DNA of 64,000 bases from Pontivivens insulae (lineage in GTDB: Bacteria; Pseudomonadota; Alphaproteobacteria; Rhodobacterales; Rhodobacteraceae): assembly GCF_900302495.1 (NCBI RefSeq), contig NZ_OMKW01000004.1:434001-498000 (forward strand). Direction: 5' to 3'. The notes under the pieces were generated by a model, which saw only the letters and a program-made list of their open reading frames with translations, was not told where the DNA came from and did not search any database. Numbering within the stretch: position 1 is the stretch's first letter; every line of letters starts with the position of its first letter. The position numbers and the translations under genes are program-made. Of this stretch, positions 31,974-33,929 are shown piece by piece.

Positions 31974-32582
31974 CTATCGCCAAAGCGTGAACGTCAGGAC
32001 ACGCGAAACCCCCAGGACATACCTTGACGGGCCGATTTCACGTTCACGGGTCAGGGTGAAGCCGAGTGCACGATAGAACCTGATAGCGCCTTCGTTGCGG
32101 GCATCGACGTCTAAACGCAATCCGTTGAGGCCACGCCGGGCGACTTCGCCCATTGCCGCGTTGATTAGCGCGCGGCCGATACCGCCCCTCCGCATCGCCG
32201 GATCAACGGCGATACCATCGATCAACAGGACCGGATCGTACTCATGGGAATCCAGGCCGCTCATAGCCAGCCTTCGCCAACCCGTGCCGACTTGGCCGTA
32301 TCGCGCGCGCAAGCCCGGTGAGATACCGTTGGTGAAAGATCCCTTTGCATGGCGCAGCCCCAGAATTCCGCAAGGCAGACCATTGTCTCGCGCAATCACT
32401 GCATTGCTCCAGTCGGCCACGGCCTCCAAAACGGCGATCCGATCATCGGACGTATTGAAGAGGCGATGAAAGCCTATGGGAAATGAGTGCTGAAAGATGC
32501 GCAGCACATCAGCGGCATCATGTGGCGCGGACAGGCCGGGGCCCTCAACCGATTGCTTTGTTCCTGTTTCGGAAACGGACAT
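31974..32582 (-). CDS. GNAT-family N-acetyltransferase
   Basis: A 202-residue acetyltransferase with the acetyl-CoA loop RRGGIGRAL (Q/RxxGxG/A) near residue 132 and the RFYRALGF segment near 168. The substrate is unknown. GAGGGA precedes ATG 32582. It lies upstream of asd on the same strand. Confidence 0.85.
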   Translation of the reverse strand: MSVSETGTKQSVEGPGLSAPHDAADVLRIFQHSFPIGFHRLFNTSDDRIAVLEAVADWSNAVIARDNGLPCGILGLRHAKGSFTNGISPGLRARYGQVGTGWRRLAMSGLDSHEYDPVLLIDGIAVDPAMRRGGIGRALINAAMGEVARRGLNGLRLDVDARNEGAIRFYRALGFTLTREREIGPSRYVLGVSRVLTFTLWR

Positions 32583-32609
32583 GTGCCGCGATCCCTCGAC
32601 TTTTCGCGG

Positions 32610-32635
32610 TTTCGTGAATCCCCTGTAACACGAAA
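32610..32635. promoter_or_regulatory. Inverted repeat upstream of the Cys/His small ORF
   Basis: TTTCGTG and CACGAAA are a perfect 7-base inverted repeat with a 12-base spacer in the divergent gap between the GNAT gene and the small ORF. It could be a regulator site or an mRNA hairpin. Confidence 0.4.
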
Positions 32636-32671
32636 TGCTGTATGGTGGGATCAGACACAGGAGGTCTTGTC

Positions 32672-32791
32672 ATGATCCGCCATCGCTTCTCGATCACCCG
32701 ATTTATCGAACTCTTTTTGAGCAGCAAGTGTTCCGAGCGTACTGGCTTTGACCGGATGGCATGCTTGTCCCACCACTGCCACTGTTCCTGA
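32672..32791 (+). CDS. Cys/His-rich 39-residue small ORF (possible leader peptide)
   Basis: ATG 32672 has a near-ideal AGGAGGT 6 bases ahead. The frame runs 39 codons and ends with a cluster of Cys and His codons (CLSHHCHCS then TGA). The stop is followed after one base by the ATG of the periplasmic protein at 32793 (TGAGATG), so translation of the two should be coupled. The first half is basic and amphipathic. I infer a regulatory upstream ORF sensing a metal such as copper, or cysteine supply, by analogy with short Cys-rich upstream ORFs known to control copper genes; this is not proven by the sequence. It is too short to be found by usual length cut-offs. Confidence 0.55.
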   Translation: MIRHRFSITRFIELFLSSKCSERTGFDRMACLSHHCHCS

Positions 32792-32792
32792 G

Positions 32793-33149
32793 ATGCGGCT
32801 GATCGGCTGGGTTTGTGCGACGCTTTTAGGTAGCGCCGCGATCGCGCATGCGGATGGGCCTGTTGTACAGGCCGTTGAGGCGCGCGAGCAGGGGGGGGCG
32901 TGGCGGTTCTCGGTCACGCTATCGCACCCTGATACCGGCTGGGATCACTACGCAGATGGGTGGGAGGTTGTTGCACCGGACGGAACGCGTCTGGGCTATC
33001 GACCGCTTGCACATCCACATGTGAATGAGCAACCGTTCACACGCTCGCAATCGGGGATAGAGATTCCCAACGGCCTGGAAACGGTACTTGTTCGCGGTCG
33101 CGACAATGGTGGCGATTGGGGACCCAGTTTCGAGTTTGAGTTGCCCTGA
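32793..33149 (+). CDS. Small secreted periplasmic protein
   Basis: A 118-residue protein with a signal peptide (LLGSAAIAHAD, cut near residue 20). The mature part is rich in His, Trp and Asp (HPDTGWDHYADGW, HPHVNEQPF), which would suit metal binding, but I do not recognise a family. ATG 32793 lies one base after the small ORF stop and lacks its own good ribosome site, which fits coupling to it. It precedes fnrL by 57 bases. Confidence 0.75.
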   Translation: MRLIGWVCATLLGSAAIAHADGPVVQAVEAREQGGAWRFSVTLSHPDTGWDHYADGWEVVAPDGTRLGYRPLAHPHVNEQPFTRSQSGIEIPNGLETVLVRGRDNGGDWGPSFEFELP

Positions 33150-33206
33150 TCCATTGCGCGCTTGGGTTCGCTGCGCGATAGTCCTTCTCGGGAGTAGGAG
33201 GATCGG

Positions 33207-33929
33207 TTGCGCAAAGATATCCACAATTCGGAGATCCCGGTTGTTTGCCGGGCCTGCGAGGCACGACATCGCGGTGTTTGCGGCGCGTTGAATCCCGACC
33301 AACTTCTTGCGCTGTCAAAGCATACGACCAGAAAGCAGTATGCTGATCACGGTGAGTTGGTTGCGGCGGGTGAAGTGTCCAACCAATACTCGAACATTCT
33401 GCGTGGTGTCGTAAAGCTGACCAAGCTGATGCCCGACGGTCGCCAACAGATCGTCGGCTTGCAATTTGCCCCAGATTTCATGGGCCGCCCCTTCCGTGCG
33501 GACAGCGAATTGACAGCTGAGGCGAGTGGTGAGGTGCAACTCTGCTCGTTCCCGCGCGACATCCTCGACAAGCTCATCCAGCAAAGCCCGGAACTGGAAC
33601 ATGCGCTGCATGAGCAGAGCCTGAGGGAACTGGATGAAGCCCGCGATTGGATGATGACGCTTGGCCGCAAGACCGCGATCGAGAAAGTCGCGTCATTCCT
33701 GTTGCTCATTGCCGCTCATCTCGACCCGGAGCGGGAAGAAGCGGCTGCTGTGACCTTCGACATACCACTTACGCGCGCGGATATGGCGGATTTTCTGGGC
33801 CTCACCATCGAGACCGTCAGCCGCCAGATGACCCGATTGCGAAAGCTCGATCTGATCACCATCAAACAGAACCGGACGATCACGATCCCCGATGTCGATC
33901 GACTCGCCGAGATTGCAGACGGGATCTGA
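33207..33929 (+). CDS. fnrL: Fnr-type oxygen-sensing regulator FnrL
   Basis: A 240-residue Crp/Fnr protein. C14, C17, C25 and C113 are placed to bind an oxygen-labile [4Fe-4S] cluster; a cyclic-nucleotide-like domain is followed by a C-terminal helix-turn-helix with the ETVSRQM recognition segment near residue 200. It activates microoxic genes through TTGAT-N4-ATCAA sites, two of which lie in this window (35796 perfect, 39421 near-perfect). The start is TTG at 33207 with AGGAGG 5 bases ahead; no ATG fits. Its TGA abuts the reversed stop of hemN with no gap. Confidence 0.93.
   Translation: MRKDIHNSEIPVVCRACEARHRGVCGALNPDQLLALSKHTTRKQYADHGELVAAGEVSNQYSNILRGVVKLTKLMPDGRQQIVGLQFAPDFMGRPFRADSELTAEASGEVQLCSFPRDILDKLIQQSPELEHALHEQSLRELDEARDWMMTLGRKTAIEKVASFLLLIAAHLDPEREEAAAVTFDIPLTRADMADFLGLTIETVSRQMTRLRKLDLITIKQNRTITIPDVDRLAEIADGI

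Follow-up and report, generated by a model that had tools for sequence, protein, structure and literature searches.

A conserved Cys-ended small ORF, very likely coupled in translation to an exported-protein gene, in Pontivivens insulae and its relatives

In the window (the whole 64,000-nucleotide stretch of Pontivivens insulae DNA analysed here), a 39-codon open reading frame (ORF) with a Cys-rich end adjoins the start of a gene for a 118-residue protein with a signal-peptide-like start. By sequence comparison the small ORF is conserved at a common locus, its frame is selected, its stop is adjacent to the next start, and there is no second Shine-Dalgarno sequence. Translation of the two genes is very likely coupled, because the stop of the first adjoins or overlaps a start that lacks a Shine-Dalgarno sequence, and the exported-protein gene probably needs translation of the small ORF to be made. 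We tentatively propose, with somewhat less than an even chance that the whole reading is right, that the small ORF is a Cys-codon leader that passes its ribosomes on to the exported-protein gene through termination and reinitiation, with an output that falls when cysteinyl-tRNA is short. The small ORF would then be a genuine translated first cistron whose strong Shine-Dalgarno sequence would recruit ribosomes, and those terminating at its TGA would reinitiate at the adjoining exported-protein start, which has no such sequence of its own. Completion of the small ORF would fall at a shortage of cysteinyl-tRNA because it contains four Cys codons, three of them within the last nine, and less completion would mean less exported protein. 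A Cys-tRNA response is possible, and that this response is the reason why the peptide is kept is our conjecture.

The small ORF opens with ATG at 32672, has 39 sense codons (MIRHRFSITRFIELFLSSKCSERTGFDRMACLSHHCHCS) and closes with TGA at 32789-32791, with its peptide ending in CLSHHCHCS. The sequence AGGAGG at 32659-32664 lies 7 nt 5' of the ATG, and a single G separates the TGA from the ATG at 32793 of the 118-residue protein (Table 1). The first-pass annotation of this DNA had described a 39-codon ORF with a strong ribosome site, this peptide end and a stop one base before the next ATG, all of which the sequence confirmed. The window has 508 ORFs with lengths of 25-60 aa, of which the small ORF alone has at least six Cys or His in its last nine residues, while at least three Cys in that stretch are found in three, the small ORF included. 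It gave no match in Pfam at E-values up to 1, so none to DUF2946, and likewise none in NCBIfam or in the plasmid collection, and none of the titles listed by a search of open-licence literature concerned it.

Table 1. Features of the small ORF locus, in window positions.
Feature	Position	Strand	Basis or remark
TCGTGA box (TTGTGA in relatives), probably part of the promoter region	32612..32617	+	60-65 nt before the ATG of the small ORF in 5/5 genomes
7-base inverted repeat TTTCGTG/CACGAAA, arms 32610-32616 and 32629-32635	32610..32635	.	Overlaps the box; not conserved
Shine-Dalgarno sequence AGGAGG of the small ORF	32659..32664	+	Sequence; duplex energy -11.0
Conserved Cys-ended candidate leader ORF, 39 codons + TGA	32672..32791	+	Same-locus homologs in G001, G003 and G018, altered in G002; purifying selection
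Junction TGA-G-ATG	32789..32795	+	NTGCTGA overlaps in three intact relatives
118-aa protein, signal-peptide-like start, Ig-like predicted fold, conserved-His family	32793..33149	+	No Pfam match, no NCBIfam match above cut-off

A homologous ORF was found at the same place, near asd, in all four genomes of the genus that were compared (the window's included, with an altered copy in G002), and at the same locus in G018, which belongs to another genus, giving a set of five homologs from two genera. In the window, G001, G003 and G018, asd on the minus strand is followed by two plus-strand genes, the small ORF and that for the exported protein, with a GNAT gene between asd and the small ORF in the first three and no GNAT ORF listed there in G018. 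When the single peptide was searched against 61 genomes, the matches besides the window's own were G003 (E 0.0012), G018 (E 0.0029) and G001 (E 0.0031), with weaker matches only in 15 more genomes (best E 0.09), and among the relatives of G018 the small ORF was found in G018 itself only (1/61 genomes). A profile of the four intact peptides, run against 394 genomes of the family (nearly one per genus, a listing without G001 and G002), recovered only its own members G000, G003 and G018, with E 0.009 for the best non-member, and against 385 genomes of the class it recovered G000 alone at E up to 0.003; members score well because the profile was built from them, and in most genomes the scoring covered no more than 19 first-look candidates. 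The weak matches in these searches (in 19/61 genomes at E up to 10 and in 160/394 at E up to 0.5) were, named members excepted, rejected as noise, and the two inspected, L093 and L100, did not share the locus. Furthermore, no relative of the small ORF was found at 80 other loci of the exported protein, and among the 77 loci with enough flanking sequence six have another Shine-Dalgarno-led short ORF ending near the start, none of them alike. The small ORF thus appears to be lineage-restricted, to two genera of one family so far.

Using BLOSUM scores summed over six pairs and codons 2-32, we obtained 418 in frame versus 175 and 109 in the other frames. Two independent pairs scored 160 in the true frame against a null of 46.7 +/- 17.6, and none of the 10,000 simulations, in which the observed substitutions were placed at random, scored as high; the two weakest single pairs gave P values of 0.007 and 0.02 in the BLOSUM simulation. 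Likewise, dN/dS was 0.22, 0.34, 0.37, 0.64 and 0.73 in five of the six pairs, the sixth being saturated. These substitution patterns indicate that the frame of the small ORF is under purifying selection. A frame not conserved in relatives had been named at first pass as a finding that would speak against the leader, and on checking the frame proved conserved. That this is a chance ORF without function is a next to negligible prospect, which its occurrence in only two genera among those searched would suit, and which the common locus and a frame-specific selection reached in 0/10,000 simulations oppose.

The four intact peptides (G002 left out) have M1, I2, R3, R5, S7, T9, C20, R28, C31, L32 and C36 in common. 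Cys20, Cys31 and Cys36 are invariant in these copies, with only the C-terminal Cys kept in G002, and the terminal His residues of CLSHHCHCS are private to the window and absent from the four homologs, so that the conservation of a Cys/His end, proposed earlier as a check, holds for the Cys and fails for the His. The main rival to the leader reading is a stand-alone functional peptide, formed of a short basic helix and a Cys-rich tail that perhaps binds metal or membrane and is merely cotranscribed and coupled, and we regard this as possible, if rather doubtful. Conservation that spans the whole peptide and is best at the N-terminus (MIR[RH]R.S.T) fits such a peptide, as does a spacing from Met1 to Cys20 and Cys31 that is fixed while the distance from Cys31 to the stop varies. 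A helix at residues 6-19 was also modelled, with low confidence, but the model gave no confident fold (pLDDT 57.6 from a 4-row alignment), and it counts further against a stand-alone peptide that no copy was found away from the locus in the 394 genomes of the family and 385 of the class, with up to 19 first-look candidates scored per genome.

The altered copy in G002 bears on both explanations. It has 36 codons (MFRRRISLTRIFEVFILRALRAARTSCNMARCPGQC) at the same place, with Shine-Dalgarno sequence, box and terminal Cys codons, and it has lost Cys20, with codons ~17 to 26 looking rewritten by eye. The exported-protein gene, present in three of the four genomes of the genus, is absent from G002, and a tRNA-Pro stands on the other strand where the next gene would be. 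An open small ORF kept without its partner gene argues against a termination-reinitiation leader, since a pure cis element would not need that, and in favour of a stand-alone peptide, although the loss of Cys20 and of the original middle argues against the latter. The G002 ORF beside its tRNA-Pro (L140, minus strand, about 640-751) is a natural test for function of the ORF itself.

For the leader reading, the junction carries much of the argument. Stop and start are adjacent in all four intact operons, as overlaps in three and with a 1-nt gap in one: the three intact relatives share the overlap NTGCTGA, with GTG, GTG and TTG as the next start, and TGA and ATG are 1 nt apart in the window, in a relative frame that differs from that of the relatives. 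Because of this difference in frame, adjacency is conserved and a frameshift fusion is not. Shine-Dalgarno duplex energies of the small ORF were -11.0 in the window, -8.9 in G003, -11.5 in G001 and -7.3 in G018, and those of the adjoining start were +1.5, +0.4, -1.5 and +1.3, respectively, so that the second gene has no independent Shine-Dalgarno sequence, with no energy better than -1.5, in any of the four intact operons. Other in-frame starts in G003, a GTG 6 nt upstream and an ATG 12 nt downstream, gave +0.4 and -0.9. Where the small ORF is lacking, the exported-protein gene had a median energy of -5.6, with 42/79 at -5 or better (79 of 80 relatives scored, one being dropped for an ambiguous residue). 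The earlier proposal of a leader-type ORF before a gene without a good ribosome site was thereby supported, in conserved frame, adjacency and the energy of +1.5.

A plainer coupling device, in which translation of the ORF opens a structured next start and the peptide and its Cys are incidental, would draw on the same junction. Folding predictions place most of the region around the next start in pairs (mean unpaired 0.31-0.44), the three intact relatives form their NTG start out of the final bases of the ORF, TGC-TGA, and open frames of more than 90 codons that end near the same start were counted 26 times among 77 relatives, a count in which loci may figure twice and some frames may not be genes. 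We consider this account unlikely, with the amino acid sequence clearly selected and Cys20 and Cys31 far from the junction. A ribosome modelled as stalled at codon 31 raised accessibility of the start from 0.35 to 0.48 in G003 and from 0.44 to 0.76 in G018, with no rise in the window (0.31 to 0.28) or G001 (0.34 to 0.32), and unmasking of the next start by a stalled ribosome was rejected because the modelled stall opens it in only two of four.

Upstream, a T[TC]GTGA box lies before the small ORF at 60 nt in the window and G003, 64 nt in G001, 65 nt in G018 and 61 nt in G002. In relatives without the small ORF, it occurs within 120 nt of the exported-gene start in 24/79 and in none of the other 55; it stands at 59-63 nt in eight of the 24 (L008, L009, L013, with its start set by alignment, L021, L025, L031, L057 and L067), and in the remainder mostly at 41-43 nt, the rest being scattered. 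In seven of the eight, all but L057, asd is directly upstream of the exported-protein gene. In these seven loci, six of them named Amylibacter, the gene for the exported protein diverges directly from asd, with the box ~60 nt before its start. Such loci look like the arrangement before the small ORF, and because the asd-adjacent genes start 59-63 nt past the box, where the small ORF starts here, the simplest history we infer is that the small ORF came between the expression signals and the gene.

Among other signals, a promoter scan gave no sigma-70 consensus match, and no terminator-like site was found in the window at 32540-33260. The inverted repeat reported at first pass is present, but the three relatives in the alignment do not preserve it, and it was rejected as an operator for that reason. 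The RNAalifold consensus of four sequences was weak (-4.2 kcal/mol, 16 pairs, of which four changed on both sides and seven were broken in at least one sequence), and with this fold and no terminator-like site in the window we also rejected a transcription attenuator. Both observations, like the modelled stall, weigh against the cysteine-leader explanation as well.

Cys-containing leaders are known elsewhere. Mycobacterial polycysteine leader ORFs resemble the small ORF as short first ORFs with Cys codons towards their ends, and differ from it in that they contain polycysteine tracts, are leaderless, stand before sulfur genes and release the downstream gene on Cys shortage. If translation is coupled as proposed, Cys-tRNA shortage would instead turn the exported-protein gene down, and neither the 4-sequence consensus fold nor stall modelling revealed a conserved alternative RNA structure for the opposite, upward response. 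To our knowledge, the exported-protein family has no link to sulfur, which we count against the cysteine-leader explanation. Closer in phylogeny is uORFC-8-2, described as a predicted cysteine attenuator before cysS in Rhodobacterales, with two stems and a terminator and with cysS released on Cys shortage in the authors' model (PMC8632094). We recognised what seem to be such leaders by position and tandem Cys, rather than by model, in G003 (MTNQMQIIRCCIIR) and G002 (MTNPTPLIRCCIIR), where 88 nt separate their ends from cysS. For the window's genome (L135), the stretch before cysS (MTNANIIFRICITA) seemingly has one Cys codon by eye, compared with the tandem Cys of the two relatives. uORFC-8-2 and the small ORF are alike as short ORFs with conserved Cys codons in the same bacterial order; however, the former has two stems and a terminator and precedes cysS (PMC8632094), whereas for the small ORF the window showed no terminator-like site, and the gene it precedes has no known cysteine role. 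In addition, the cysS leader has tandem Cys in 14 codons and a stop 88 nt before cysS, while the small ORF has 37-40 codons and adjoins the next start.

The 118-residue protein had been described as exported and His-rich, of which the first part agrees with a signal-peptide-like N-terminus seen by eye, while the second is generous for five His in 118 aa. Four His lie in the mature part: in an alignment of 45 members, taken from the window, G003 and 43 of the 80 loci, all sequences have H45, H74 and H76, and at least 90% have H52; this conservation suggests a metal site, and a metal-binding role of the protein is a guess. Relatives were found as at least 457 confirmed candidate stretches, of which 80 were kept (L001-L080), and together with the window gene they form a widespread Ig-like family with the motif H.DTGWDHYADGW ... 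HPHV.EQPFTRS and no Pfam entry found. The protein was modelled with a mean pLDDT of 89.0 and seven strands, and because many unrelated Ig/FnIII-type domains matched at a similar level in VIA-align (Z 8.3 to 10.2), only "Ig-like" was retained. The HP..H motifs, presumably akin to those of SoxZ and superoxide reductase, had suggested kinship with these proteins, which ranked weakly in Foldseek; this was rejected for want of hhalign support (probability 0.3 and 2.2, with templates of 12 and 3 rows). An AsnC-family PDB sequence match (E 0.0027) and scattered Pfam matches of single family members look like chance and were set aside. In a poorly resolved tree of the exported protein (120 columns), used to test for a single origin of the small ORF, the four ORF-bearing members were not united and three changes were needed, at least two of them forced by supported branches, which we count against the leader reading.

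The first-pass annotation had also hinted at copper or redox sensing from the closeness of fnrL and cco genes. An FnrL-type regulator is present at 33207-33929 (NCBIfam FnrL, E 5.7e-64, below the model's curated cut-off), with cco genes beyond it by eye in the ORF list, but in the three intact relatives the next gene after the pair is a different one on the opposite strand, and the hint finds no support. Metal binding by the nascent chain fares no better. At termination, the ribosome tunnel encloses most or all of a chain of 37-40 residues, and counted back from the C-terminus the Cys of the four intact peptides occupy positions from the last to the 21st. As these Cys are still in the tunnel at chain completion, and none of the four homologs has the His of CLSHHCHCS, it is implausible that an exposed nascent chain captures metal.

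A copper or redox switch of the CutF or CruR kind, with nascent Cys/His binding metal, does have in its favour the Cys cluster and two precedents for metal-sensing upstream ORFs (PMC9973294, PMC9426467). CutF of Rhodobacter capsulatus is reported to be an exported DUF2946 protein with a CxxxC motif, a proline-rich end and a stem-loop that hides the following Shine-Dalgarno sequence (PMC9973294), while CruR of Bordetella pertussis has 145 aa, 45 residues between CXXC and a RAPP arrest motif, a 162-bp intergenic region and Rho-dependent termination (PMC9426467). Both resemble the small ORF as upstream ORFs with a Cys motif, in the case of CutF before the gene of an extracytoplasmic protein in a related bacterium. 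However, the small ORF has no DUF2946 match and adjoins the next start, no signal peptide was seen in its peptide by eye, and neither a proline-rich nor a RAPP C-terminus was seen by eye in the five homologous peptides. With only 37-40 aa, compared with the 45 residues that set CXXC apart from the arrest motif in CruR, Cys still in the tunnel, and neither His nor neighbour genes conserved, we consider such a switch very unlikely.

A bolder version of the leader reading, which we judge improbable, is that of a new short leader-peptide family whose Cys20, Cys31 and Cys-rich end, at fixed distance from the N-terminus, would pause translation in the tunnel on thiol, sulfur or cysteine status, with coupling relaying the signal to an exported, possibly metal-binding Ig-like protein. 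At the least, the locus adds a small and clearly selected ORF family without Pfam or NCBIfam match, before a widespread exported family with four conserved His. If its Cys codons are regulatory, it would be a cysteine-dependent leader that acts via reinitiation and not attenuation, and whose effect would run counter to that of the predicted cysS leader in this order. A possible origin for the leader ORF is also suggested, since its start site is where the main gene itself starts in some relatives.
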